Source: Candidatus Fermentithermobacillaceae bacterium
Lineage (GTDB): Bacteria; Bacillota; Sulfobacillia; Fermentithermobacillales; Fermentithermobacillaceae
Assembly (NCBI GenBank): GCA_012842425.1
Contig: DUSU01000095.1
Span: 1 to 46,305, forward strand
Length of the DNA: 46,305 nt
Direction of reading: 5' to 3'
Positions 1,073 through 46,048 of this stretch are shown one piece after another; the stretch's first letter is position 1; each line of letters opens with the position of its first letter. Below the pieces are notes generated by a model, which was not told where the DNA came from, did not search any database, and saw nothing but the letters and a program-made list of their open reading frames with translations. A program made the translations under genes and the position numbers.

Positions 1073-2036
1073 CGTCCACAATCACTTCTACCCCATGGCC
1101 TACCTCGAGATGGTGAAAAAGGGAGGCTGCGTGGCACAAGCGGGTCGCGACGATGAGGGAAACCTCCTCATCATCTATGAGGGAGACTTCAACGTAGTGG
1201 ACCGGGGACACAGGGACCAAGATTTCCGACTGGCCGAGTTGGACAGATTCGGCATCGACGCCCAGGTAGTGACGATGACCACCCCGGGAGTCCACATTGA
1301 GGAAGCATCGAGAGGGATCGAGATGGCAAGGGCCTCAAATGAGGGGTTCGCAGAGATGGCAAAGAAGAGCGGAGGCAGGTACGCCCCTCTGGCCGCGCTC
1401 CCGCTCCAAGCACCGAAGGCGGCCGCCGATGAACTCATCCATGCAGTTACAAAGCTGGGCCTTAAGGGCGGGACACTCTTTACCAACGTGTGCGGCAAGC
1501 CGCTGGACCTGCCCGAGTTTCGTCCGGTGTTCGAAGCCGCAGCCTCGCTGGGAGTCCCCTTGTTCATCCATCCGACAACCCCTGTACCGGCCCAGATGTT
1601 CCTCGACTTCCGTCTTGCGGCCACCGTGGGCTTCACGACGGACACAACGGTCACCTTCGCCAGGCTGATTTTCTCAGGACTTCTGGACGAGATCCCCGGT
1701 CTTAAGCTGGTGGCGTCGCACCTCGGGGGTACCCTCCCCTTCCTTGCCGAGAGGCTAGACAGGGGTTTCGAAGCCTACCCCGAGTGCAAGAAGCCCAAGA
1801 AAAGGCCGTCGGATTACCTGAAAGGGATCTTCTACGACTGCGTCCTGTTCGACCCCCGGACGGTTGAGTTCGCCATCGATACGATGGGTGTTACTCAGTT
1901 CATGGTGGGAAGCGACTACCCGCATCAGATAGGCAGTCTGGAGAAGGCAGTAAAGGTCGTCGCCGGCCTCGACCTGAGAGACGCTGAGAAAGAACTCGTC
2001 TTTGGGAAGAACGCACAGAAGCTCTTTGGACTATAG
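1062..2036 (+). CDS. Amidohydrolase family 2 (ACMSD-like metal-dependent hydrolase/decarboxylase)
   Basis: The protein has the layout of PF04909 TIM-barrel amidohydrolases: an N-terminal metal motif DVHNHF, a mid-barrel His in LFIHPTTP, a further His in ASHLGG, and a late Asp in GSDYPH. Members include aminocarboxymuconate-semialdehyde decarboxylase and related decarboxylases and hydrolases acting on aromatic or keto acids; the actual substrate is unknown. I start it at GTG 1062 rather than the track's 1017 because AAGGAGG lies about 8 bases upstream and the HxH motif then falls at residues 6-8, as is usual. The overlap with the nhaC end suggests coupled translation and a shared pathway (inference). 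Confidence 0.82.
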   Translation: MIIDVHNHFYPMAYLEMVKKGGCVAQAGRDDEGNLLIIYEGDFNVVDRGHRDQDFRLAELDRFGIDAQVVTMTTPGVHIEEASRGIEMARASNEGFAEMAKKSGGRYAPLAALPLQAPKAAADELIHAVTKLGLKGGTLFTNVCGKPLDLPEFRPVFEAAASLGVPLFIHPTTPVPAQMFLDFRLAATVGFTTDTTVTFARLIFSGLLDEIPGLKLVASHLGGTLPFLAERLDRGFEAYPECKKPKKRPSDYLKGIFYDCVLFDPRTVEFAIDTMGVTQFMVGSDYPHQIGSLEKAVKVVAGLDLRDAEKELVFGKNAQKLFGL

Positions 2037-2087
2037 AGTTCACGGAGCTGTGGAATCGGCGCAGCCATAGACCCAAACAAATCGGCA

Positions 2088-2107
2088 GGGCGGGGAAATC
2101 CCCGCCC
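2088..2107. terminator. GC hairpin after the amidohydrolase gene
   Basis: Arms GGGCGGGG and CCCCGCCC pair perfectly around an AAAT loop. It lies about 50 bases after the amidohydrolase stop and between convergent genes. The T-tract on the plus strand is poor (TTCCATTCT), so termination efficiency is uncertain. Confidence 0.6.
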
Positions 2108-2183
2108 TTCCATTCTGACACTCATTCTTTGGTATCTTTGAGCAATCTCAAGAGATCCGACAAAACGACCGCCTCAGGCCGGT

Positions 2184-2366
2184 TTAATACCTCCGCCTCT
2201 TGCGGGCGCGCGCAGCTTCGGACTTCTTCTTGCGTCTTACGCTCGGACTTTCGTAGTGCTCGTGCTTGCGCACATCCCTGAGGATACCCGACCTCTGACA
2301 CTCTCTCTTAAAGCGGCGTAGGGCGCTGTCGAAGCTCTCTTCCTTGCCAACTCTAACCTCTGGCAA
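2184..2366 (-). CDS. rpsU: 30S ribosomal protein bS21
   Basis: A 60-residue, strongly basic protein with the bS21 signature: [19 protein letters not shown] at the start and [14 protein letters not shown] near the C-terminus. bS21 is a late-assembling small-subunit protein near the 3' end of 16S rRNA that helps initiation. The track's 84-residue version starts upstream of the SD sequence. I place the start at TTG 2366, which follows GGAGGGAGGGACAGAGT and gives the normal family length. It sits downstream of the hrcA/dnaJ/mtaB cluster, its usual neighbourhood in Firmicutes, but has its own promoter. Confidence 0.93.
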
Positions 2367-2421
2367 ACTCTGTCCCTCCCTCCGCCGCAGGAGTTCCTCC
2401 CGCTCCTGAATAACAACTAGG

Positions 2422-2451
2422 ATTGTACAATATGTCACTTCACTAGGTCAA
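2422..2451 (-). promoter_or_regulatory. sigma-A-type promoter for rpsU
   Basis: Read on the minus strand, TTGACC and TACAAT are separated by 18 bases, about 55 bases upstream of the rpsU start. The predicted leader contains a hairpin (CAGGAG/CTCCTG, 2388-2408). Confidence 0.6.
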
Positions 2452-2531
2452 TCAGGACTGAAGCGGCACCGGAGGACAGTTCTGCCTGCCGGATACCTTT
2501 TGTCACCTAGAGACGCGGGGCGGGTTCTCGC

Positions 2532-3641
2532 TTAGGACTTACGGTAGACTTCGCGCCACGATTGGGCCTGGCGCTCAAGGGCTAGGTCCACCAGTCTCCG
2601 CACCAGTTCGGGAAAGGCGAGGCCGCTCGCCTCCCACATCTTGGGGTACATGCTAATCCGGGTAAACCCGGGGATGGTATTAAGCTCATTTACGTAGACC
2701 TTTCTCGCCTTCGCGTCGACGAAAAAGTCCACCCTGGCCATGCCCTTGCATCCCGTGACGCGGAACGCCTCCACCGCGATCTCCTGCACCCGCGCCATCA
2801 TCTCGGGGTCCAGGTCAGCCGGAATAGCAAGCGCCGTCGTGTCTTCGATATACTTCGCTTCGTAATCGTAGAACTCTCTGCCGGGAAGGATCTGCCCGGC
2901 TATGGATGCGACCGGCTCTTCGTTCCCGAGGACGCTGCACTCAACCTCCAGACACCCCTCCATCGCGGGCTCCACAAGCGCTTTTGTGTCGTAAAGGAAT
3001 GCCCGGTCAAGAGCTGTCGCCAGAGCATCCGGGCTCTTGACCTTCGTTACCCCCAAGCTCGACCCTGAGCCTGAAGGCTTCGCGAAGAGTGGAAAGGTGA
3101 CCCTGTTAAGCAGGTTCTCCAAAACCTCCTGCCTGTTTGTCCTCCATGAATGCCGCCCCACGGGTATGGCAGGCACGTGTGGGACTCCCGCTGAAGCGAG
3201 GAGCCGCTTGGTCGTGTCTTTGTCCATGCACACCGCCGAAGCCAAGACCGGAGCGCCAACGTAGGGGATGCCCGAGAGCTCAAGAAGGCCTTGGAGCGTG
3301 CCGTCTTCGCCGTAAGGCCCGTGCAGGACCGGGAATACCACGTCGATCTCATGGAGCGCCATCTTGCCGTCGCCGTTAACCCAGACCCCCTTCTTGTCCG
3401 GGTTAGGCAAGAGGCAGCACGATGGCCCCATCTCGACCAGCACCTCTGTGCTCCCGCTCGCGAAAAAGGCTTCGCCGTCGCCTAGGTACACCCACTGCCC
3501 TTGCCTGGTCACTCCTATCGCCACGACCGCGAAGCCCGCTTGCCTGGCGGCACCGATCACCGAAAAGGCAGACATAACAGAGATCTCGTGTTCGCCCGAT
3601 CTCCCGCCGAAAACAACTCCCAGCCTAAGCACATGCATCAC
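2532..3641 (-). CDS. ddl: D-alanine--D-alanine ligase
   Basis: An ATP-grasp enzyme that joins two D-alanines for the peptidoglycan stem peptide, in the cytoplasm. Visible family motifs are FGGRSGEHEIS at the N-terminus, HGPYGEDGTLQG in the N-terminal/central region, the ATP-binding KPSGSGSSLGV loop and the Mg-binding NELNTIPGF near the C-terminus. The 369-residue length is normal. The gene lies 6 bases after mtaB and is probably translated by coupling. No clear SD is seen. GTG 3641 and ATG 3638 are adjacent, so the exact start is uncertain by one codon. Its presence at the end of the heat-shock cluster is not the usual arrangement. Confidence 0.93.
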   Translation of the reverse strand: MMHVLRLGVVFGGRSGEHEISVMSAFSVIGAARQAGFAVVAIGVTRQGQWVYLGDGEAFFASGSTEVLVEMGPSCCLLPNPDKKGVWVNGDGKMALHEIDVVFPVLHGPYGEDGTLQGLLELSGIPYVGAPVLASAVCMDKDTTKRLLASAGVPHVPAIPVGRHSWRTNRQEVLENLLNRVTFPLFAKPSGSGSSLGVTKVKSPDALATALDRAFLYDTKALVEPAMEGCLEVECSVLGNEEPVASIAGQILPGREFYDYEAKYIEDTTALAIPADLDPEMMARVQEIAVEAFRVTGCKGMARVDFFVDAKARKVYVNELNTIPGFTRISMYPKMWEASGLAFPELVRRLVDLALERQAQSWREVYRKS

Positions 3642-3647
3642 CCTAAG

Positions 3648-4925
3648 TTAGCGTCTCGCTGAACCGGTTACATCCAAGGGGCCCGCTTCTTGGACCGTCA
3701 CGCTAATTACCTTCCCCTTGAGGTCGTCTTCTCCGGAAAAGCGGCACCTAACGTAGTTCCTGGTGAACCCCGCCAAGAGCCCATCCTTTTCGCGGTCGTC
3801 TTCCACCAGGACTTCAAAATCTCTCCCAACAAGTCTACGGTGAAATGCCCCGGAGAGTTCCCGTCCCAGCGAGATCAGGGCCGAAACTCGTTCTTCCTTT
3901 ACCTTCTCAGGCACCTTGTCCTCAAACGCTGCGGCTCTCGTCCCCGGACGAACAGAGTACTTGAAAGCGTGGATCCTTGAGAACCCGGCCTCCCTTGCAA
4001 CCGTCAGACTCTCCCGAAAGTCCTCTTCTGTCTCGCCGGGGAACCCTGCGATTATGTCGGTGGTTAGCCCGAGGTCCGGTGCGACCCGCCTTGCCCTCCC
4101 CACGATGTCCATGAAGAGGGCCACATCATACCTGCGCCCCATCATCCGCAAGATCCGATCGCTCCCGCTCTGAAGGGGAAGGTGGAGGTGATGGCACACG
4201 TTGGGCAGCCTGAGGCAGTCAAGGAGTTCGGGGGTGACGTCGTGGGGCTCCAGAGAGCTTATCCTCAAGCGGATGAGCCCCTCAATCCGGCCGACCTCCT
4301 CGACGAGCCGGGGGAGATTGCCTTCTCCGTAGAGACCGATATGGGTACCCGTCAGCACAATCTCTTTGTACCCACGCTGAACCAGCCTCTCTGCTTCCCT
4401 GATGACGCTTTCGGGGCTTCTCGACCTGGAGGGGCCCCTGGCGTAGGGGACTATGCAGTAGGTGCAGTAGTCGCCGCACCCTTCCTGGATCTTTAGAAAT
4501 GCGCGGGTGAGGTCCGGCTGCTGGACCTCGGTCTCCTCAAACTCCTCACCCGCCACATGGGGTTTCACTTCGACTACCGGCGCCCCGGTCTCAAGGGCTT
4601 CCAGGACCAGATCGGCCAGACGGCTCCGTTCCCTGACGCCCGAGACCGCGATTACGCCGGGGATCTCCTTAACCTCGTCTGAGGCAATCTGGGGATAACA
4701 ACCCGTCACAACAACCTTAGCGCCCCTTCTCGCCGCAGCCCGTATGGCCTGGCGGCATTTCTGGGCGCTCCGCGCGGTGACGGCGCACGTGTTTATCACT
4801 ACTACGTCGGCATCGTCCTCAGCGACGACAAAACCCTTCCTCTCGAAGCTCTCCCTGAGAAAATCGGTATCGTAGCGGTTCTGCTTGCATCCAAAGGTGC
4901 GGAAAGACACCGTCTTCTTCGGCAA
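3648..4925 (-). CDS. mtaB: tRNA t6A37 methylthiotransferase MtaB (radical SAM)
   Basis: MtaB converts t6A to ms2t6A at position 37 of ANN-decoding tRNAs. The N-terminal UPF0004 domain shows its three cluster-binding cysteines (FGCKQNRYD, NTCAVT, TGCYPQ). The radical-SAM motif CGDYCTYCIVPYARG lies near residue 150, and a C-terminal TRAM region ends the 425-residue protein. The FGCK start is typical of the MtaB branch rather than MiaB or RimO. The start codon is TTG 4925 with a modest SD (AAAGGGCAGGG). In Firmicutes mtaB normally follows rsmE; here a polysaccharide deacetylase gene lies between them. Confidence 0.92.
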   Translation of the reverse strand: MPKKTVSFRTFGCKQNRYDTDFLRESFERKGFVVAEDDADVVVINTCAVTARSAQKCRQAIRAAARRGAKVVVTGCYPQIASDEVKEIPGVIAVSGVRERSRLADLVLEALETGAPVVEVKPHVAGEEFEETEVQQPDLTRAFLKIQEGCGDYCTYCIVPYARGPSRSRSPESVIREAERLVQRGYKEIVLTGTHIGLYGEGNLPRLVEEVGRIEGLIRLRISSLEPHDVTPELLDCLRLPNVCHHLHLPLQSGSDRILRMMGRRYDVALFMDIVGRARRVAPDLGLTTDIIAGFPGETEEDFRESLTVAREAGFSRIHAFKYSVRPGTRAAAFEDKVPEKVKEERVSALISLGRELSGAFHRRLVGRDFEVLVEDDREKDGLLAGFTRNYVRCRFSGEDDLKGKVISVTVQEAGPLDVTGSARR

Positions 4926-23131: not shown

Positions 23132-24376
23132 CTACCTTGTGGGCGGCGGGTAGGACGGCTGGTAGGTGTTGCGCATGATGAACTGGCGCTCCACTTCCTC
23201 ACCGTTTAGCTTCTTCACTCTGTATGTCTCAACCAAGAGGCCCGGCCGCTTCCCCGGCGACGGGTACTCAGCCAACGTAACGGGCGCAATCTCGTACGTG
23301 TAACCGTCCGGTATGCCGAAAACCCTTATGGTCACCCTGCCGTCTTCGACCCACGCGCCAAAAACCACCTTTTCCTGAGTGTTGTTCTTGATTTTGAGGT
23401 CCAGGTAGTCCCACGCTACCGCTGCGTCCCATCCGGGAGGCACGTAGTCTACTGGGATTCCGTGAGCCGTAACGTACGGGAAGTCCAGACCGGCAAGACA
23501 AGCCGCGTCAAAGAGCGTGGTAGTCACCTGGCAGATCCCGCCTGCAAGGCCGGGCTCCAAGTGGTCTCCTACCACGACGTTGGCGTAGCGGTACCCCTTG
23601 GCCACAGTCCTCTCTCCCGCTTCGCGGTTGAAGCTGTAAACATCTCCCGGGTTCAACACTTTGCCGTGGACCGCTTGAGCAGCCAAAGCAAGGTTTACGT
23701 TCCTGTCCGTATCCTCAATGTCATACTCCGTGGAGAACTCACTGATGAGCGACAAGGCAGGCAGCTCTTGACCTTCAGGCGGCGCCACGGGGGTGTACGC
23801 AACCTCGACGCAGGTACCCTCGATCTCCTTGAGGGCCTGAGCCACGTCTTCCCTCTTCACAACCTGTCCTTCAGTCGGGGGAACTACGACAAGGTCCCGC
23901 TCCACGAACTCGTACCGTGAGCCCTGGGGCTCGGCGGAAAGCGCGGTCGCGATTTCACCGAGGATGTCTCTCGACTCCGGCAAATCCACCGTGACCGGAG
24001 AGGCCATCACCGTCTTCGCTCCACGTTTGGAGAGAAATGAGGGCCAGAGACGCGGGGCCGAAGATACGTATTCGTCGAGAGATCTGAGAACGCGGTACTC
24101 GTCGATAATAAGGCCGATCTCCTCCGGCTTTACCTCGTAGGTCCTGCTGCCCGCAGTGAAAACAATGGGACCTTCCCTAAGCTCCTGGATTCTCTCTAGG
24201 AGCGCCTCCTCGGCCGCGCTGCGTGAGAGCCCGCCCAAGGACACCCCCATGGCCCACACGTTTCCCGACACTACCTCGTGCCGGAAAAGCAGCGCCGATA
24301 TCACAAAAAGCCCCAGCAAAACCGCGGCTAGCACGGGTACGCTGAGCTTGTCCTTCTTTTTTCTATAAGCTGCCAT
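23132..24376 (-). CDS. VanW-family exported protein with peptidoglycan-binding-like domain
   Basis: After a short N-terminus and a membrane segment (about 13-33), a region of about 200 residues resembles the PG_binding_4 module common in these proteins. The VanW domain then shows NVNLALAAQAVHGKVLNPGDVYSFN, GYRYANVVVGD and GLAGGICQVTTTLFDAACLAGL. The function is not settled; homologues occur in vancomycin-resistance clusters and many spore formers and are thought to act in the cell wall. I prefer ATG 24376 with GAGGAACCA upstream over the track's GTG 24400. It is inserted between comEC and holA, nine bases before holA. Confidence 0.85.
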   Translation of the reverse strand: MAAYRKKKDKLSVPVLAAVLLGLFVISALLFRHEVVSGNVWAMGVSLGGLSRSAAEEALLERIQELREGPIVFTAGSRTYEVKPEEIGLIIDEYRVLRSLDEYVSSAPRLWPSFLSKRGAKTVMASPVTVDLPESRDILGEIATALSAEPQGSRYEFVERDLVVVPPTEGQVVKREDVAQALKEIEGTCVEVAYTPVAPPEGQELPALSLISEFSTEYDIEDTDRNVNLALAAQAVHGKVLNPGDVYSFNREAGERTVAKGYRYANVVVGDHLEPGLAGGICQVTTTLFDAACLAGLDFPYVTAHGIPVDYVPPGWDAAVAWDYLDLKIKNNTQEKVVFGAWVEDGRVTIRVFGIPDGYTYEIAPVTLAEYPSPGKRPGLLVETYRVKKLNGEEVERQFIMRNTYQPSYPPPTR

Positions 24377-24453
24377 TGGTTCCTCACTCCGGTCCGCCAC
24401 ATGCGGTTTCTAGGTGGCTTCATTCAGGTTTTCTCCCTGATAAGCCGCTTCTC

Positions 24454-27135: not shown

Positions 27136-28296
27136 TCATTCGCTCCTTAGCGCCTCCACAGGCGCCAATCTAGACGCGCGATACGCCGGATAGACTCCGA
27201 ACACAAACCCGACCAGCACCGCGAAGCCGAAAGCAACGCCGATGGACGTGGGGGACACGGAAGTCCGGGCCCCCATCTTCCCAACCATTCTAGAGGCAAA
27301 TATGCCGAGCAAGACTCCGGCAACTCCGCCCAAGGAACACAGCATGGCACTCTCGAACAAGAACTGAAGCATCACGTGGAACCGCTTCGCGCCTACTGCC
27401 ATCCGAAGCCCTATCTCCCTCGTGCGCTCCGCAACTGCGACCAGCATGATGTTCATGACACCGATACCGCCGACCAAGAGTGACACTCCGGCGATGGCTC
27501 CGAGCATCAAGGTCATCGTCCTGGTGGACTCCTGGAGCTGGTCGAGCATCTCTTGCTGGGTCCACACATAGACGGCATTCTCACCGTACTTCGACTCGAA
27601 GATACGCTCCACCGTGACCTTGACGACCGGGACGGTATTCTTGTTGGTCGCCTTCATGAAAACTTCGTCAACCCTGTTGGTGCCCCGTCCGCGCTGGGCT
27701 ACCGTGAGGGGGACGAGGATCATGTGGTCTACGCCTTCCCCCAGGTTCTGGCCCTTTTCCTCCATGACGCCGATTATCTGAAATGGCCTCTGGTCCATGT
27801 AGATGGTCTTCCCCACGGGGTTTCTGCCTGCAAAGAGGTCTTGCACCACCTGCCAGCCCAACACGCACACGGGACGGGCTATCTCCATTTCAACGTCTGT
27901 GAAGAACCTGCCTATGTACACCTCGTGTTCCCGGATCTTCGGGAATATGGGTGTGACACCCATGGTGGGTGCCCAGCGCTGTTTCCCCTCGTAAGTGATC
28001 TGAGCACCCCAGCTCACCGTAGGCATTACCATTTCCATATCGGGGACGCGTTCTTTGAGGTTGTTGACCTGCTCAATGGTGAGCCGCGCATCCCATCTCT
28101 GCATGTACATCCTGAGGATGTTGGTGCCTATGCTCTCGAAGTTCTCGATAACGTCGCGCCTTGCGCCTTCGCCGATGGAAACCAGGGCTATAACCGACGC
28201 GACGCCTATGATGACTCCCAGCATCGTGAGGGCCGACCGCATCTTATTGCCCGTAAGTCCCCTCACGGATACCTTCAAAACATCTGCCGTGCGCAC
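27136..28296 (-). CDS. MacB-type ABC transporter permease (FtsX family)
   Basis: A 386-residue permease with one N-terminal membrane helix preceded by GLTGNKMRSALTMLGVIIGVASVI, a periplasm-facing MacB core domain (about 45-240), and three C-terminal helices in the FtsX domain (GVMNIMLVAVAERTREIGLRMAVGAKR). MacB-like permeases act as mechanotransmitters exporting lipoproteins, peptides or antibiotics with an adaptor protein. The adaptor gene lies 30 bases upstream. No ATPase domain is in this protein or in adjacent genes, so the ATPase must be encoded elsewhere. GTG start behind AAGGAGGGATAGGG. Confidence 0.9.
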   Translation of the reverse strand: MRTADVLKVSVRGLTGNKMRSALTMLGVIIGVASVIALVSIGEGARRDVIENFESIGTNILRMYMQRWDARLTIEQVNNLKERVPDMEMVMPTVSWGAQITYEGKQRWAPTMGVTPIFPKIREHEVYIGRFFTDVEMEIARPVCVLGWQVVQDLFAGRNPVGKTIYMDQRPFQIIGVMEEKGQNLGEGVDHMILVPLTVAQRGRGTNRVDEVFMKATNKNTVPVVKVTVERIFESKYGENAVYVWTQQEMLDQLQESTRTMTLMLGAIAGVSLLVGGIGVMNIMLVAVAERTREIGLRMAVGAKRFHVMLQFLFESAMLCSLGGVAGVLLGIFASRMVGKMGARTSVSPTSIGVAFGFAVLVGFVFGVYPAYRASRLAPVEALRSE

Positions 28297-28326
28297 CCCT
28301 ATCCCTCCTTTCCGGACTGGCCCATC

Positions 28327-29901
28327 TTAGTACTTTCGTATGACCATCCCGGGCCGTCCTCCCATGGAGGGATCGTTGGGGTCCTTGGTCATCCCGACCA
28401 CGACTTCCTGGCCTTCGGTAAGTCCACTGATAATCTCGGCAAACATGTCGTTCATGGCTCCAACTTCTACAGGCACAGGAGTCCTCTCGTTTTCGCCTGT
28501 CTTCAGGTCAACAAACCAGTTGTTATCTTCTTTGTACAGAGCCTCCACCGGACACAGGAGAACTCCTTCCTTCTTGGACACGAAGATCCGCGCCTCGCCG
28601 CCCATTCCGGGCCGCAGGAAGCCGGGATTCTGGACCGACAAGGTGATGTTGAACGAGGAGTAACCGTCTCTCAGGTCGCCGCTGGCGCCGATCTTGCTGA
28701 CAACGGCGGGGACCGACTGCTGTCCTTCCCGACCCCAGACCATGACCTGGGCTTCCTGCCCTTCCTGGATCTTGGGGACATCTATCTCGTCGACCCTGAG
28801 CATAAGGTTCATCTCTTGGAAGTTGGCCACCCGAGTTACCCTGGTCCCTTTGCTGACGCTCTGACCCACGGTTATGTTCTGCTCATAGGCCACTCCGTCC
28901 ATGGGGCAGATAACGCTCAGGTTGGAAAGCATGGCCTTCTTATCTTCCAGTTCCGCCAATTTCTCCTTGAACTTAAGCTGGAGGGTCATCGCCTGGAACA
29001 GCGCCTCTCCGGGCTCGAGCTCCAGTATGGGCTCTCCCTCTTTGACCCACTGGCCGTCCCTCACGAAAACCGCCTTGACCTTTCCCGAGACGGACGTCGA
29101 AACCGTTTCTTGAGAGCCAAAAGCCGCGATCTTGGCCGCCGGCTGGTAGTCTATTCCCGGAGCGTCAAAGGCCACGGTGCCCTCATCGCCCACCTTGAGA
29201 AGCCCTGGGTTCCCTATCTCAACCCAGACGTTGTAGAGATAGGCCTGGTCGGCCTTGACGGGGATCGAGTCTATCTTGGTGACGGCTCCCGGCACCTGGC
29301 CCTCAAATCTCTTGGGCATGAAGGCAGCCGGAGTGCCGACCTGGAGGGCGTTATACACGAACTCAGGCACCTGCAGTTTGATGACCAAGCGCCTGTCGTC
29401 GACAACCTTGCACACGTCGCCCTGGGCGGTGGAACCGGCGTCCAGTGCTAGCCCCGAGATAGTGCCGGTCGCCGGGCTCCTTAGGATCAGGGCCGAAGCC
29501 GGGTCGACATTCTCAACCTGATCCGGCGAGACGCCGAACTGGCGCGCCAGCTTCAGCCTCTCACCCTCAACCTCGAGCTCAAGGGACCGGATGGATACCG
29601 ATAGCGTGCCCGGGTCTATGGTAGCAAGCACCTGTCCCTTGAATACGGGGTCGCCCGCCTGGAAGAACACTTCCTTCACGACGCCTTCGGCACTGGTAAC
29701 TACATCCCGCTCTTCTTTGGCCGTGAGCGTCCCCCAGCCCCACACAACAACTTCTATGTCGCCCATGGTCACCGGCTTGGTCGCCATTACGAGCTTGGCT
29801 TCGCCTTCGCTCACCATCGCTTTGACGCCCCAGTACCCGAGCCCGACTATGGCCAGGACTATGACAGTGATCACTGCCCATCTCACCGGAAATCGCTGCA
29901 T
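28327..29901 (-). CDS. MacA/HlyD-like membrane-fusion adaptor protein
   Basis: A 524-residue adaptor with an N-terminal membrane anchor (about 9-29), lipoyl-type half-motifs (EGVVKEVFFQAGDPVFKGQVLA and a second set around GKVKAVFVRDGQWVKEGEPILEL), a helical hairpin stretch (LQLKFKEKLAELEDKKAMLSNLSV) and C-terminal beta-barrel regions. Two lipoyl-like segments make it longer than usual MacA (about 370-400). It would link to the MacB-like permease encoded downstream. The ATG start follows GGGGAGGAGACAGC. Confidence 0.85.
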   Translation of the reverse strand: MQRFPVRWAVITVIVLAIVGLGYWGVKAMVSEGEAKLVMATKPVTMGDIEVVVWGWGTLTAKEERDVVTSAEGVVKEVFFQAGDPVFKGQVLATIDPGTLSVSIRSLELEVEGERLKLARQFGVSPDQVENVDPASALILRSPATGTISGLALDAGSTAQGDVCKVVDDRRLVIKLQVPEFVYNALQVGTPAAFMPKRFEGQVPGAVTKIDSIPVKADQAYLYNVWVEIGNPGLLKVGDEGTVAFDAPGIDYQPAAKIAAFGSQETVSTSVSGKVKAVFVRDGQWVKEGEPILELEPGEALFQAMTLQLKFKEKLAELEDKKAMLSNLSVICPMDGVAYEQNITVGQSVSKGTRVTRVANFQEMNLMLRVDEIDVPKIQEGQEAQVMVWGREGQQSVPAVVSKIGASGDLRDGYSSFNITLSVQNPGFLRPGMGGEARIFVSKKEGVLLCPVEALYKEDNNWFVDLKTGENERTPVPVEVGAMNDMFAEIISGLTEGQEVVVGMTKDPNDPSMGGRPGMVIRKY

Positions 29902-30059
29902 GCTGTCTCCTCCCCGAAATTAGGCCGAACTTCCTCAAGTTCCGTACTTGTATGTACTTACGAAAATGCCTCCGGATCCTCCCGTTCTAGACGTACAGGA
30001 TCCACAAATGTTCCAGTGTTAACATTCATACCGTTCGCTATAGGAAAGAGGCAAGATCC

Positions 30060-30088
30060 AAGGCCCGGGAGGGAGTCTCCCGGGCCTT
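30060..30088 (-). terminator. Terminator of groESL
   Basis: A 12-base-pair stem, AAGGCCCGGGAG / CTCCCGGGCCTT, with a five-base loop, 23 bases after the groEL stop. On the minus strand it is followed by a T-rich stretch (GGATCTTGCCTCTTTCC). Confidence 0.75.
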
Positions 30089-30111
30089 GCGTATGCGTCA
30101 AAGCGATGTTC

Positions 30112-31734
30112 TTAATAATCCATATCCGGGCTAGGCGGATACGGCGGGTTCTTCTCCTTCTCGGGCTTCTCGGCGATCAGGCAGTCGGTGGTGAGCACCA
30201 TGGACGCCACCGAAGCGGCGTTCTCCAGAGCGGAGCGGACGACCTTCAGGGGGTCGACAACGCCGTTCTTCGCGAGGTCAATGAACTCACCAGAGACGAC
30301 CTCAAGGCCCCAGCCCTTCTTGCCGGAAGCTTTCACCTTCTCGACAACAACGGAACCCTCAAGACCGGCGTTGTTCGCGATCTGCTTGAGCGGCTCCTCA
30401 AGGGCTCTCTTCACGATCTGAGCGCCCACCTTCTCGTCGCCGGTGAGGTCGAGCTCGTCGATAACGGGAGCGACGTTGATAAAGATGGTGCCGCCGCCAG
30501 GGATCATGCCTTCCTCAACACCGGCCCTTGTGGCCGAGAGGGCGTCCTCAAAGCGGTGCTTCTTCTCTTTGAGCTCGGTCTCGGAAGCGGCGCCGACCTT
30601 GATGACGGCGACTCCGCCGGCAAGCTTGGCGAGCCTTTCCTGGAGCTTCTCACGGTCGTAATCGGAATCGGTTTCTTCGAGCTCCTTGCGGATCTGGTTA
30701 ATGCGGGCCTCGATATCCTCCTTGGAGCCCTTACCTTCGACGATAGTGGTCTTCTCCTTGGCGACCTTGACCCTGGCGCACTGGCCAAGCATATCGAGCT
30801 CTACGTTCTCCAGCTTCACGCCGAGGTCTTCCGAGATGAACCGTCCGCCGGTCAGGACCGCGATGTCGCCCAGCATGGCCTTGCGCCTGTCTCCGAATCC
30901 GGGAGCCTTGACTGCGCAGACACTCAAAGTGCCGCGGATCTTGTTAAGGACGAGAGTTGCAAGCGCCTCACCCTCAAGGTCCTCGGCGATAATCAAGAGA
31001 GGCCTGCCGCTCCTCGCGACCTTCTCAAGAAGGGGCAGGATGTCGGCGACCGCAGAGATCTTCTTCTCGTAGATGAGGATGTAGGGGTCGTTGAGCTCGG
31101 CCACCATGGCCTCGGTATTGGTGACAAAATACCCCGAGAGGTAGCCGCGGTCGAACTCCATACCTTCAACAACTTCAACGGTGGTAGCGGTTCCCTTGGA
31201 CTCCTCGATGGTAATGACTCCGTCCTTACCCACCTTATCCATGGCATCGGCTATGAGGCTGCCGATTTCCTTGTCGTTTCCTGCGTTGGCGGCTATGTTC
31301 GCAATGTCTTCCTTGCTCTCGACCGGGATGGCCATCTTTTTCATCTCTTCGACGGCCCTCGCGACAGCTTTGTCAATTCCCCTCTTCAGGAAGATGGGGT
31401 TTGCGCCTGCTGCTACGTTCTTCATGCCTTCGCGGACGATAGCATGGGCGAGAACAGTCGCGGTGGTGGTCCCGTCTCCTGCCACATCGTTGGTCTTGCT
31501 GGCGACCTCGCGGCAGAGCTGGGCACCCATATTTTCATAAGGATCAGAAAGCTCGATTTCCTTGGCGACGGTCACGCCGTCTTTGGTGATTACCGGAGAC
31601 CCGAACTTGCGGTCCAGGACGACGTTGCGGCCCTTGGGACCCAGGGTTACTTTCACCGCGTTGGCCACGGCGGCGACTCCGGCCTCGAGGGCTTTACGCG
31701 CCTCTACATCGTACGCAATCATCTTTGCGGGCAC
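30112..31734 (-). CDS. groEL: Group I chaperonin GroEL
   Basis: A complete 540-residue GroEL. Visible motifs are [12 protein letters not shown], the ATP loop [24 protein letters not shown] and the apical substrate-binding region, and [12 protein letters not shown]. It forms the double-ring folding chamber with GroES. The C-terminal tail [11 protein letters not shown] lacks the GGM repeats common in GroEL. The GTG start follows AGGAGGG; GroES lies 55 bases upstream. It is in the same window as the archaeal-like chaperonin and is likewise expected to be HrcA-regulated. Confidence 0.98.
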
Positions 31735-31789
31735 TTCAGTTAGTCCCTCCTAGTGTGGATAGTCTTAACGGGAAACCCCTTAAGAACGG

Positions 31790-34683: not shown

Positions 34684-35112
34684 GTGGGACAGACCTTGTA
34701 CGCCGGGCTCCTTGCCGGCCTTGTGGCGGGATTGGTATCAGGAATAATGCTGCAGCTTATGTGGGTTCTCACACCGCTCAGTCTCCTCCTTTCCCTACCG
34801 CCGAATCCGTCTACCGGGTGGATTCCCCACCTGATCATCTCCCTCATATTTGGCATAGTCTTTGCCTTCGTCGCCGAAGCGTTCCTCCCCGGGCGGAGCG
34901 GCGCGGTGGCGGGCGGCCTCATAACTGGCCTCCTCGCGTGGATTGTAGGACCCCTCACCCTGGTCCCTCTCTGGATCGGTCTTCCTCCGCAGTACACCCT
35001 CGCGTCGAGGTGGCTTAAGGTACTGGCCGCGTACTTGGCTTACGGACTTGTCCTCGGCGAGGTTTTTCACGCGTTCCGCGAGAGAATCCCTGAAAGGCGG
35101 CGAGCAGAATGA
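34684..35112 (+). CDS. Small four-helix membrane protein, unknown function
   Basis: A 142-residue protein with about four hydrophobic segments (LYAGLLAGLVAGLVSGIMLQ, HLIISLIFGIVFAFVAEAF, AVAGGLITGLLAWIVGPLT, LKVLAAYLAYGLVLGEVFH) and a basic C-terminus. I do not recognise a named family. The GTG start is preceded by AAGGGATCAAGG. The stop overlaps the start of the propeller/beta-lactamase gene in ATGA, so the two are likely co-translated and may function together. Confidence 0.7.
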   Translation: MGQTLYAGLLAGLVAGLVSGIMLQLMWVLTPLSLLLSLPPNPSTGWIPHLIISLIFGIVFAFVAEAFLPGRSGAVAGGLITGLLAWIVGPLTLVPLWIGLPPQYTLASRWLKVLAAYLAYGLVLGEVFHAFRERIPERRRAE

Positions 35113-37313
35113 CCAAGAGGCTGTTCTTGTTCCTACTTCTTGCGCTCTTTGTCGCGGTCTCCATCGTGACGCTGAAGGTCACTCCGCTGCAAGCAGAAGA
35201 GACGGTTGAGGTGATGCTCCCGGGAGGCTACAGGATCGAACCCGTAGTGACCGGGCTGACTTTCCCCACGTCAATCGCCTGGGATGACCAGGGAAGGATG
35301 CACGTCCTGGAAGCGGGATACGCATACGGCCCCAAGGAAGTCGGGCCGGGCAGGGTGCTAAGGATCGAGGGCGGGGTCCCGACTACCGTCGTGGACGGCC
35401 TCAATTCTCCCGCCACAGATATCAAGTTCAAGGAAGGTGAGATGTACATCGCCCACAGAGGCACTCTCTCAGTGATGAGAGACGGAGGTCGCGTCGACCT
35501 CATCACAGGACTGCCTTCCGGAGACCACTACACCGGCGAAATCGCCTTTGACGATGAAGGATGGGTCTACATAGGCAACGGGACCGTGACAAACTCCGGA
35601 GTCGTCGGCGACGACAACTTCCGGTTCGGCTGGGCGGCGGAAAACCCCAACCTACACGATGTGCCTGCCAAGGACATAAGACTCGCAGGCCACAACTACG
35701 AGTCGCTGGACCTCAGGACGCCCAACCCGGCCGACAAAACGGTCACAGGCGGGTTTTCACCGTTCGGGACCCCTACGGCGCCCGGACAGGTCATTCCAGG
35801 CAACCTGAAGGCAAGCGGCGTTATCCTCCGGGTGAGGACGGATGGAAGCAACCCCGAAGTTTACGCGTGGGGGCTCAGAAATCCGTTCGGCCTGCGTTTC
35901 GACCCATCGGGAAGGCTCATCGCCGTTGACCAAGGCTATGACGACCGGGGAGTAAGGCCGGTTGCCAACGCCCCCGACCCGGTGTACGAGATCGTCCAGG
36001 ACGGATGGTACGGATGGCCCGACTACGTTGCGGGCATCCCCATTACCGACATGGGGTTCAGGTCTTCAAACCAAGATGCGGCGCCGGCCTTCCTCATGGC
36101 GGAACATCCGCCGCTGCAGCAGCCGATTGCCACTCTGAGCCCTCACACTGCGGCAATGAAGTTCGACTTCGCCCCGAGAGGGTTTGACGGTGAAGGCAAG
36201 ATGTTCATCGCCGCTTTCGGCGCCGGAGATCCGGCCACCGGCGTAGTGGGCGAGATAACGGGCAGCAAGGTCGTGACGCTCGACCTGGCTACCGGCAAGG
36301 TGGAAGACTTCGCTTACAACCGCAGCCGTAAGCCCGCGGGCCGTAACCTCTCCGGGCTGAACCATCCCGTGGACGTGAAATTCGGACCCGACGGCAGCAT
36401 GTACATCGTAGACTTTGGAGTGTTCGAGATAAACGGGCAAGTACCGAACGCCGTGCCGGGAACGGGCGTCATCTGGAGGGTGTTCAGGCAGAGGTCCGAG
36501 TACGCCGAGTTCTTGAGCGAAACCATGAAGAAACTCGAGTCGGCCCCTCCCTGGAACCCTGACTACGAACCGCTCAGGGCACAGGTTGAGGAGTGGGTTA
36601 AGTCCCAGCCGACCCAATGGGGAGTGTATTTCAAGGACCTCACCTCGGGGAAAACCTTCGGCGTGAATGAAAAACTCCCAGTACCTGCTGCCAGCACGGT
36701 GAAGGTAGCAGTAGTCCTTTTCGCCAGTAACTTGGTAAGTCAGGGCAAACTGTCGTGGGATGAGAGGCTCACCTATTACGCCGACCGCGACTGGCGCAGC
36801 GGGGCCGGCACCATGCAGTACACGGCCAAAGACGGAGACTCTTTTACAATCCGGGAACTCTGCGAGAAGGCAATCCGGGACAGCGACAACGTGGCATGGA
36901 AGATGCTCGAACGGAGGCTCGGCAAGGAAAACCTCATCTCGTTCATGTGGGGTCTTGGCGGCAAGAATGTCTACCCCGGCGGGCAGAACATTTCCACCGC
37001 CAAGGATAACGCCGTATACATGGAGGCAGCCCTGAACTTCGCAAAGGAGAGCCCTGAAGGCGGCAAGCTCATATTCGACTTGGCCAATACGGTATGGAAC
37101 ACCGGGCTCAACCGGTACATCGATGAAGTCGTGGTTGCCCACAAAGAAGGCGACATAACCGGCGTAGCCGACGACGTGGGGATCATCTATGCCAAGCATC
37201 CGTACATCCTCTCCATCATGTCGCAAGGACATGACGACGTAGAAGCCGGGTTTGAACTCATCGGACAGCTTTCCAGGATGGTCTACGATTACCAGGTCGG
37301 ACTCGAGAAATGA
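35109..37313 (+). CDS. Exported fusion: sugar-dehydrogenase-like beta-propeller plus serine beta-lactamase-like domain
   Basis: A 734-residue protein with a signal peptide (hydrophobic residues 5-25, cleavage near LQAEE). Residues about 35-460 resemble the glucose/sorbosone dehydrogenase propeller: AWGLRNPFGLRFDPSGRLIAVDQG, GWYGWPDYVAG, GLNHPVDVKFGPDGSMYIVDFG. Residues about 490-734 resemble class A beta-lactamases: STVK (SxxK at 529-532), SDN at 592-594 and KEG near 679 in the KTG position. No clear Omega-loop Glu equivalent to E166 is seen, so it may be a penicillin-binding or peptidase-like enzyme rather than a drug hydrolase. The ATG overlaps the upstream membrane-protein stop. Confidence 0.82.
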   Translation: MTKRLFLFLLLALFVAVSIVTLKVTPLQAEETVEVMLPGGYRIEPVVTGLTFPTSIAWDDQGRMHVLEAGYAYGPKEVGPGRVLRIEGGVPTTVVDGLNSPATDIKFKEGEMYIAHRGTLSVMRDGGRVDLITGLPSGDHYTGEIAFDDEGWVYIGNGTVTNSGVVGDDNFRFGWAAENPNLHDVPAKDIRLAGHNYESLDLRTPNPADKTVTGGFSPFGTPTAPGQVIPGNLKASGVILRVRTDGSNPEVYAWGLRNPFGLRFDPSGRLIAVDQGYDDRGVRPVANAPDPVYEIVQDGWYGWPDYVAGIPITDMGFRSSNQDAAPAFLMAEHPPLQQPIATLSPHTAAMKFDFAPRGFDGEGKMFIAAFGAGDPATGVVGEITGSKVVTLDLATGKVEDFAYNRSRKPAGRNLSGLNHPVDVKFGPDGSMYIVDFGVFEINGQVPNAVPGTGVIWRVFRQRSEYAEFLSETMKKLESAPPWNPDYEPLRAQVEEWVKSQPTQWGVYFKDLTSGKTFGVNEKLPVPAASTVKVAVVLFASNLVSQGKLSWDERLTYYADRDWRSGAGTMQYTAKDGDSFTIRELCEKAIRDSDNVAWKMLERRLGKENLISFMWGLGGKNVYPGGQNISTAKDNAVYMEAALNFAKESPEGGKLIFDLANTVWNTGLNRYIDEVVVAHKEGDITGVADDVGIIYAKHPYILSIMSQGHDDVEAGFELIGQLSRMVYDYQVGLEK

Positions 37314-43498: not shown

Positions 43499-46048
43499 AT
43501 GTATTTGCTTATGAACAACCACGAGGTGCGTTCCCAAAGAATAGCCTGCCCACCTGCTGAAGTACTGGAAAGCACCTGCCAGCTCTTCAGCCTGCCTTTC
43601 CGATATGAGAAACGGTCCGGGATCTTCGCCGTACACCCGCCTCTTCTTGGGAAGAACATACTCATCGAATCGATAAAGCCCATTCGCCTCCTTGAATCGC
43701 AACTCCATAGCCAGCTTATGGCCGAGCTCTGGCTCTTGGAGCAGCTCCTATGGGTATCCGGCGCAGAAGTGGTCCTGCGCGACTCGTCGCACCCTGAGGA
43801 AGCGTCGAGGAGAAAACTCGTTCTCGAATATGCTTCCCACTGGGATGTTGTCCTTCTCGTCTTCCCAGGTCAGAGCATGTCCGATTGCGTTGAGCCGCTG
43901 GCCATTTACCCCTGGTGGCAATGGGCCTGCGCTAGTTACCGTCTGGCGGGACACCTCGCTGCCGGTCTGGGTCCCTCCTCTCCGACTTTCACGAGAGCAT
44001 CGAGTTTCAAGATGACCAAGGAGATGAAGACTTGGTTTTCGGAGACGCTCCAGTGGACCAACGCTCCGACGGTGCTTCTTTCCGTGCCGCTGATAGATGG
44101 GTACGTGGACCAGTTCGTGGAGCTACTGTCTCTTACCGTAAGCCACGGGGTCCTTAAGTACTTCAAGAAGCAACCCTTGCCGGCTGCCGCGAGGGATTAC
44201 CTAAGGCGAGCGTCCGACATGGGGGCGAGAGTCCGTGTTCCCGTCCCTGTCCGGGAGGCGGCGGAATCCTCGCCCACGGTAGAAAGCCTGCTCGCCATAG
44301 CTCCCGGAGTTCCTGCCTACACCGCGCCGGCGACCGAGCCTCCGGTCACACCGGCCTACCCCATCACCGCACCTGAGCCTCCGGTCAAGACAATGGGTCC
44401 CCTTGGACCACGTGAGGTCGCGCCTGTTAAGCAAGATGCACTGAGACCCGAACCTCCGGCAGAACCTCAGACCCCGGAACAGCCGCTGAAGGAGCCATTA
44501 AGCGCACTTGAGCTGGCCCAAGCAGACTTAGCGAAGCATCGAGACCCGCAAACCCTGGCTCAGAAAACCGCCGCATGGCGTGACAGAATGCAGCGTGTAC
44601 AAATACCACCGATAACTCAAGTTATCCGTCCGAATCCGCTCATCCAGCCGCAGGTCGTCACCCCACCTGTCGCTCCATCCACCATCTCATCAGCCGTCAC
44701 ACCGGTGACTCCGTCCGCCTCACCGGCGGTCCCACCGGCTGTCCCCTCCGCCGTTCCGCCGGTCGTCCCTCCGGCGCCCTCGGCTGCAGGCTCATCCACC
44801 GGACAGCCGAACCAGCCGCCCACCCAGCGGCCTGAACAGGAGCATGCACCACGGGCGGCCCAAGAGTTGACCCGGCAGACTGAGCAGGAACCTAGGCAGC
44901 GGGTAGCCCAACAGACGATGCAGCGCTCTGAACAAGAATCGGGCCAGAGAACGGCTCAGCCTCCCGCGCAACAGACTGAACAGGCACCCGCTCAGCGCGT
45001 TTCTCAGCAGCCCGCAGAGCGGCCGGAGCAGACAGCCGGGCAGCCGGAAGAACAGCAACCTGCCCAGCGGCCGGACCTAAGAGCCGTGCAACAAACAGGG
45101 CGACAGCTGTCTCAGGCGCCGTCACTCGATTCCGCACAACAAGCATATCGGTGGCCGGCGCAGCGGTCAGAGCAGGAACCCGGACAACAGCTGGTCCGGC
45201 AACTAGTTCGTACGTCCGGGCAGGAGATCATCCAACAGGTAACCAGAGAGTCTCTTCAGCGTTCTGATCAGGGGCCGGGTCAACAGCCCATCAGACAGCC
45301 TGCCCGGCGTTCTGAACAGGAACCGGCTCAACAAGCGGCCGTACCAGAGACGCAGCGGCCCGAACAGGAAGCACGGCAAAAGGTGGACCTGAAGGCGGCA
45401 CAGCGGCCAGAACAACGACCTGCCCAGCAAGTAGAACAGCAACACGTGCAGCCGCCGCAGCAGCGAGCCGGGCAACAGGCAACCGGACAGCAGACAACCG
45501 GGCAGCAGACAACCGGACAGCAGGCTACCGGACAGCAGGCTACCGGACAGCAGGCAGTACGGCAACTGCCTCAGGCCTCAGAGCAAGAACCCGCACAGCA
45601 AACGTCTAGGCAGGAAACCCGGCCGGCGGAGCAGGAGTCCACGCAACGCGTCCCGCAGTTCCTCCAGCCCGCTGCCGTCTATCAAGGTCCGCAGTCGGGA
45701 AGGTCCCCCATCCGGCAGTACGTTCAGACACCCGCCGTTGTTCTCGGACCGAGCTCCCGACGTCTTGGACCCGGAGCCATCCAAGAAGAAACCAGGGCTA
45801 CCGGGCCTGTAACCGGTGTTACTCCGACCGTACCGCCTATAACCAACCTTCCGAGAAGCCAGCGGGACGATGAGAGGCTCATGCAGCTGCGCCAAATGCT
45901 CCTGGAGTCCCCCGAAACCGCTGTCAAACAGGCGGCGGAGATCCTCTCGAGCAGAGGCATCAGCCCCACGCCCGAGAAAGTTGAGGAGTATGTAGAATAT
46001 CTAAACCGTATGGTCCTCCGAAAAGAAGACTCAAACGTGCCTGACTAG
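43499..46048 (+). CDS. Large protein: amidase-like N-terminus without metal ligands, Pro/Gln-rich repeat region, helical C-terminus
   Basis: An 849-residue protein with three parts. Residues 1-230 form a compact domain. LWLLEQLLWVSGAEVVLRD, the following Arg-rich helix, DVVLLVFPG, then TNAPTVLLSVPLIDG and SHGVLKYFKK follow the order of a MurNAc-L-Ala amidase (Amidase_3) fold, but the expected zinc His/Glu residues are not apparent. Residues about 235-430 are Pro/Ala/Val-rich. Residues about 430-720 are degenerate units rich in Gln, Glu, Pro and Arg (EQEPAQQ-like), including tandem TGQQ repeats. The last 60 residues are helical (LRQMLLESPETAVKQAAEIL). No signal peptide is visible. ATG start after AAGGGGAG. 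Function unknown. Confidence 0.75.
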   Translation: MYLLMNNHEVRSQRIACPPAEVLESTCQLFSLPFRYEKRSGIFAVHPPLLGKNILIESIKPIRLLESQLHSQLMAELWLLEQLLWVSGAEVVLRDSSHPEEASRRKLVLEYASHWDVVLLVFPGQSMSDCVEPLAIYPWWQWACASYRLAGHLAAGLGPSSPTFTRASSFKMTKEMKTWFSETLQWTNAPTVLLSVPLIDGYVDQFVELLSLTVSHGVLKYFKKQPLPAAARDYLRRASDMGARVRVPVPVREAAESSPTVESLLAIAPGVPAYTAPATEPPVTPAYPITAPEPPVKTMGPLGPREVAPVKQDALRPEPPAEPQTPEQPLKEPLSALELAQADLAKHRDPQTLAQKTAAWRDRMQRVQIPPITQVIRPNPLIQPQVVTPPVAPSTISSAVTPVTPSASPAVPPAVPSAVPPVVPPAPSAAGSSTGQPNQPPTQRPEQEHAPRAAQELTRQTEQEPRQRVAQQTMQRSEQESGQRTAQPPAQQTEQAPAQRVSQQPAERPEQTAGQPEEQQPAQRPDLRAVQQTGRQLSQAPSLDSAQQAYRWPAQRSEQEPGQQLVRQLVRTSGQEIIQQVTRESLQRSDQGPGQQPIRQPARRSEQEPAQQAAVPETQRPEQEARQKVDLKAAQRPEQRPAQQVEQQHVQPPQQRAGQQATGQQTTGQQTTGQQATGQQATGQQAVRQLPQASEQEPAQQTSRQETRPAEQESTQRVPQFLQPAAVYQGPQSGRSPIRQYVQTPAVVLGPSSRRLGPGAIQEETRATGPVTGVTPTVPPITNLPRSQRDDERLMQLRQMLLESPETAVKQAAEILSSRGISPTPEKVEEYVEYLNRMVLRKEDSNVPD
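45473..45555 (+). repeat. 15-bp tandem repeat in the Gln-rich coding region
   Basis: Five full units of the type CAGCAG(A/G)C(A/T)ACCGG(A/G) plus a partial sixth, the first variant starting CAACAGG. Each unit encodes QQ-A/T-TG, so copy-number change would keep the frame. Confidence 0.9.

Follow-up and report, generated by a model that had tools for sequence, protein, structure and literature searches.

What is the function of a protein that carries a beta-propeller and a beta-lactamase-like serine domain in a single polypeptide? The question is raised by a gene on a 46,305-nucleotide contig (DUSU01000095.1; hereafter the window) from a Candidatus Fermentithermobacillaceae bacterium, which a first-pass annotation had described as one frame with a signal peptide, a GSDH-like propeller, and a domain with SxxK, SDN, and KxG motifs. 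That description holds, with the qualifications that the GSDH match is weak and that cleavage of the signal peptide is a prediction. The frame is open over 734 codons without interruption (Table 1), and residues 505 to 704 match the Pfam family PF13354 ("Beta-lactamase2"; E = 1.3e-41; 142.7 bits against a curated cut-off of 22). Hydrophobicity at the N terminus peaks at residues 6 to 24, and this helix is followed by an alanine (A29) that is invariant in the alignment of all 12 fused proteins, which fits a signal peptidase I site. The helix could alternatively be a signal anchor, and its position matches that of the last transmembrane helix in propellers fused to transmembrane (TM) domains. 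The protein is, judging from these features, probably exported. An AlphaFold2 model of the full protein, built with four near-identical sequences, had a mean pLDDT of 43 and was discarded.

Table 1. Features of the propeller-serine locus, with window coordinates
Feature	Coordinates	Strand	Remarks
Upstream gene, DUF6789 (PF20587)	34684..35112	+	142 aa; four predicted TM helices; stop overlaps fusion ATG (ATGA)
Fusion gene	35109..37313	+	734 aa; unbroken orthologues in 11 further genomes
N-terminal hydrophobic helix and probable signal peptidase I site	35109..35195	+	aa 1-29; predicted cut after A29
Beta-propeller (GSDH/ScyE/NHL-like)	35211..36494	+	aa 35-462; PF07995, NF033206
Best GSDH-like blade, R257-N258-P ... 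W300-YGWP	35877..36020	+	aligned with sGDH HRNPQGL...NYGWP
N418-H-P-V-D-V	36360..36377	+	aligned with Arg-Leu-Arg of a GSDH relative (2ism GRLREV); weak, 3.6 bits
PBP-A/class A-like serine domain (PF13354)	36561..37310	+	aa 485-734
S529-T-V-K532, nucleophile and general base motif	36693..36704	+	invariant in 12/12 fused proteins
S592-D593-N594	36882..36890	+	invariant in 12 fused proteins and in the 12-row wider alignment
Shortened Omega-loop region, no Glu166 equivalent	36918..37007	+	no conserved acid before D633
K679-E680-G681, replacing K[ST]G	37143..37151	+	E invariant in 12/12 fused proteins

The reading favored here, to which we give an even chance, is that of a serine peptidase-like enzyme that is associated with the membrane and directed at the wall, its propeller being noncatalytic and used for binding. 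The exported protein would hold a PBP-A-like serine acyl-enzyme beside the propeller on the external side of the membrane, where S529, K532, S592, and N594 would attack a peptide bond in the stem peptides or cross-bridges of peptidoglycan using DD-peptidase-like chemistry. The propeller would bind or position a wall polymer or a membrane partner rather than oxidize sugar, and the four-helix DUF6789 protein encoded upstream would be that partner. The host genome encodes five PBP transpeptidase (PF00905) domains and therefore makes peptidoglycan and has a wall. A more specific proposal, speculative and on present evidence unlikely to hold in full, is that the DUF6789 protein, the propeller, and the serine domain form a three-part surface module in which recognition of wall glycan directs a serine peptidase of new specificity, the Lys-Glu-Gly (KEG) box marking wall hydrolases insensitive to penicillin that form a separate clade widespread in Bacillota.

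A PBP-A-like serine domain with a glutamate in the KxG box

The closest solved structure to the serine domain is PBP-A (Tll2115) of Thermosynechococcus elongatus (PDB 2j7v, 2j8y, 2j9o, and 2jbf; E = 1.4e-23), a DD-carboxypeptidase/endopeptidase specific for amidated muropeptides (PMC11189452). The two share a class A-like fold by sequence, the SxxK, SDN, and KxG motifs, and the lack of Glu166 together with a short Omega loop, which in PBP-A is short by six residues (PMC7514474). The spacing between motifs measured here is 63 residues from SxxK to SDN and 87 from SDN to KxG, the same values that the first-pass annotation gave, in comparison with 61 and 97 in PBP-A; the SDN-to-KxG interval is thus 10 residues shorter in the fusion, which matches its shortened Omega loop. 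PBP-A is cyanobacterial and has no propeller, whereas the fusion belongs to Bacillota and has a propeller in front of the serine domain. The glutamate by which PBP-A selects amidated muropeptides (Glu96) aligns with Ser/Gly in the fusion, and the host genome, which is 84% complete, yielded no MurT_C gene.

The serine and lysine of SxxK are also invariant among standalone relatives of the domain, and K679 and G681 of the KxG box are invariant in both the fused set and the wider 12-row alignment. The residue between them is glutamate in 10 of the 12 rows of the wider alignment and isoleucine in the other two, and never serine or threonine. In class A enzymes and PBPs, the Ser/Thr of the KxG box contacts the carboxylate of the substrate or beta-lactam, so that a glutamate at this position makes both a classical DD-carboxypeptidase and strong binding of penicillins less likely. 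The KEG box suggests that the substrate is unlikely to be recognized through a free terminal carboxylate, which favors an endopeptidase, or an enzyme whose substrate is amidated or modified in another way, over a DD-carboxypeptidase of the classical type. Since the position is Ser/Thr in PBP-A (KTG) and in the lactamases compared with it (Table 1 of PMC7514474), substrate recognition by the fusion may differ from that of any known PBP.

Class A beta-lactamases such as TEM and SME have the fold, SxxK, and SDN in common with the fusion but differ in possessing Glu166 and K[ST]G. The absence of an Omega-loop glutamate had been pointed out in the first-pass annotation, and across the 12 fused proteins there is indeed no conserved acidic column at residues 602 to 632; the serine domain is therefore not built for beta-lactam hydrolysis. 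The NCBIfam model for class A enzymes (bla_class_A) scored 64 bits against a cut-off of 200, and all NCBIfam beta-lactamase models were far below their cut-offs. With Glu166 and K[ST]G both missing and these models failing, the protein is probably not a beta-lactamase, in agreement with the nonlactamase role suggested earlier.

The nearest relatives of the domain are Bacillota PF13354 "serine hydrolases" that are standalone or linked to LysM or PG_binding_1; the best are 43 to 70% identical to the fusion domain and have the same motifs, mostly with KEG, but no propeller. They point to an extensive clade of class A-like serine enzymes in Bacillota that have a glutamate in the KxG box, where Ser or Thr is present in known PBPs and lactamases, and that are easily misannotated as beta-lactamases. 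Within the clade, one serine domain is joined to LysM (locus L080, genome G335) and another to PG_binding_1 plus LysM (L092, G236), and these linkages are the strongest indication that the target is peptidoglycan. Because the closest solved relative is a DD-peptidase and sister domains carry these modules, the wall-acting role that the first-pass annotation put forward is still the best reading. The host genome (G000) contains five further PF13354 matches over the cut-off (C18:2396-3019, C49:1219-1857, and one each on C102, C71, and C38), which are 29 to 30% identical to the fusion where aligned.

It is possible, with a modest probability, that the domain instead hydrolyzes an ester, amide, or peptide outside peptidoglycan and that the KEG box reflects a change of substrate. 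The replacement of Ser/Thr by glutamate throughout the clade would be expected under such a change, and bifidobacteria that carry PF13354 genes show neither beta-lactam resistance nor activity on nitrocefin, and no beta-lactamase activity (PMC3855789). The LysM and PG_binding_1 modules of the sister proteins, however, indicate the wall.

The upstream DUF6789 gene

The gene that precedes the fusion encodes a protein with four hydrophobic segments, for which the DUF6789 match is marginal (PF20587; 28.5 bits against a cut-off of 27.1). Its stop codon and the fusion start overlap by 4 bp, and an overlapping pair is also found in G001, G002, G003, and G007; the two genes are, from this arrangement, probably translationally coupled. 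DUF6789 adjoins the fusion only in the window genus (g1) and in genus g5. In g4 and in G042, a genome from another family of the class, it lies away from the fusion, with DUF6789 genes elsewhere in all of those genomes except G013. Neither the coupled membrane gene nor the KxG glutamate was mentioned in the first-pass annotation.

At least six other genomes from diverse Bacillota (G040, G020, G443, G158, G528, and G065; loci L037, L017, L081, L083, L084, and L090) encode a TM domain and the propeller in one polypeptide. Aligned with the TM domains that precede the propeller in five of these polypeptides, the upstream protein is 31 to 34% identical to four and 23% identical to the fifth. It shares W, GP, and G-P motifs with all five, and with one of them BLAST gives a local match of 66% over 29 residues. 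The DUF6789-like part is often fused to the propeller elsewhere, whereas it is a separate, overlapping gene at the window. Since the same propeller is fused to such a TM domain in other genomes, the DUF6789 protein and the propeller can be regarded as one unit, a Rosetta-stone argument that falls short of proof of contact, and the DUF6789 protein is a likely membrane partner of the fusion protein. No paper on the function of DUF6789 was found in the literature.

A membrane partner could also belong to a receptor. In that case, the serine domain would bind muropeptide or beta-lactam, or be acylated by it, without turnover, and the propeller and DUF6789 would relay or scaffold the signal in a manner similar to BlaR1/MecR1. 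This improbable alternative is consistent with the missing deacylating glutamate, with the membrane gene upstream, and with the resemblance of the propeller to NHL sensor domains such as that of PknD. Against it, the DUF6789 protein, with four TM helices in 142 residues, has no space for a cytoplasmic output domain, the adjoining genes are not regulators, and PBP-A is still an enzyme although it also lacks Glu166 (PMC11189452).

The propeller and the question of sugar oxidation

The propeller of the favored wall enzyme had been proposed in the first-pass annotation to be glycan sensing or glycan oxidizing. The GSDH family PF07995 matches a single blade (residues 244 to 313; E = 1.3e-07; 31.7 bits against a curated cut-off of 25), the best NCBIfam propeller model, ScyD/ScyE (NF033206), scores 64.7 bits and is below its cut-off of 80, and the PQQ dehydrogenase model TIGR03606 reaches 33.4 bits against 434.55. 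In comparisons with PDB structures, the N-terminal part of the propeller matched NHL, Pizza, and PknD sensor propellers best, and a middle blade matched soluble PQQ glucose dehydrogenase (sGDH; 1c9u/1cru). The fusion shares the RNP...YGWP blade with sGDH and PF07995, but only about residues 244 to 328 align with sGDH, at low scores.

The propeller is 39 to 50% identical to standalone propellers across Bacillota. Considered together, the TM-propeller proteins and the relatives annotated as PQQ-dependent sugar dehydrogenases, which include proteins of Alicyclobacillus and of Deinococcus plasmids, are about 37 to 50% identical to it over its length and have no serine domain. The fusion links a widespread propeller, with PQQ-annotated relatives and in non-respiring Bacillota, to cell wall chemistry and a DUF6789 membrane partner, and gives the propeller, the serine domain, and DUF6789 one testable common function.

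A PQQ-dependent, glycan-oxidizing propeller tethered to a wall enzyme is very unlikely. The above-cut-off PF07995 match, the RN...WYGWP residues in common with sGDH, and the annotation of the relatives speak for it, but they are set against the distance to TIGR03606 and several further observations. The arginines that contact PQQ are apparently missing, His-Pro-Val standing in place of Arg-Leu-Arg in what is a weak alignment, and H140, at the expected place of the catalytic base His of sGDH, is Tyr in G014. No pqqE gene over the curated cut-off was found in any of the 154 genomes of the class, in a search that had no confirmed PQQ maker as a positive control and with PQQ uptake still possible. 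The described class member "Ca. F. carboniphilus" is predicted to lack both aerobic and anaerobic respiration, and the lineage is fermentative (PMC10215811). The lack of a pqqE match over the cut-off, the apparent replacement of Arg-Leu-Arg, and the predicted lack of respiration together make glycan oxidation unlikely, and this part of the earlier proposal is not sustained. Binding or positioning is the preferred putative function of the propeller over oxidation, and the PQQ dehydrogenase annotation looks doubtful for the whole TM-propeller group.

Distribution and origin of the fusion

The fusion was searched for among 61 relatives, all 154 genomes of the class, and 399 genomes of the phylum. 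It is present in 12 of the class genomes, each time as one continuous frame and with 60 to 91% identity: four in the window genus (g1), five in g4, one in g5, one in an order mate (g6), and one in G042. Within this search, it was confined to relatives of "Ca. Fermentithermobacillia", a little-studied and heat-loving group of Bacillota, and the one other family of the class represented by G042; the named records for three of the carrier places are Candidatus Fermentithermobacillaceae. Elsewhere in Bacillota, both modules are common but in separate proteins, the propeller often joined to a 4-TM domain and the serine domain standalone or with LysM/PG_binding_1. The longest propeller frame outside the lineage, of 761 aa in G443, ends in a low-complexity Pro/Glu tail without a serine domain. 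The plasmid collection contained the propeller alone or the serine domain alone but never both together, and the viral contigs scanned for both domains contained no relatives.

In the tree of serine domains, the fused copies and three standalone domains (G004, G016, and G014) form one supported group (99/98), and in the propeller tree, a branch with weak support (62/88) sets the fused propellers apart from the others. Both trees are compatible with a single fusion event; the three standalone domains may have lost the propeller, or there may have been a second fusion event. The G042 copy (L027, positions 1390 to 3660) is 65% identical, yet neither of the family mates G060 and G063 has a match to the propeller, a pattern that hints at transfer or a binning error.

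No paper on a propeller-serine fusion was found. For the genomes and literature covered here, the statement that no established family has this architecture stands, and the combination appears to be unreported in that literature, although each of its two parts belongs to a known family. The idea that a frameshift or lost stop in the assembly, at a junction near 36500 to 36580, merged two genes can be dismissed, as nothing was found in its favor and the same unbroken frame occurs in 11 other genomes, the carriers spanning three families.

Apart from DUF6789, the neighbors of the fusion are not conserved: they are HydE/HydG/HydF-like in g4, UvrC-like in G042, and a CitMHS transporter in the window. 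The HydF/HydG/HydE-like hydrogenase maturation genes of the g4 genomes (L030 to L034) lie a few kilobases from the fusion, which is probably only synteny. Elsewhere in the window, three large frames at 27553-29448, 30016-31740, and 43499-46045 (632, 575, and 849 aa) had no Pfam match, and positions 23135-24400 encode a VanW-family protein.
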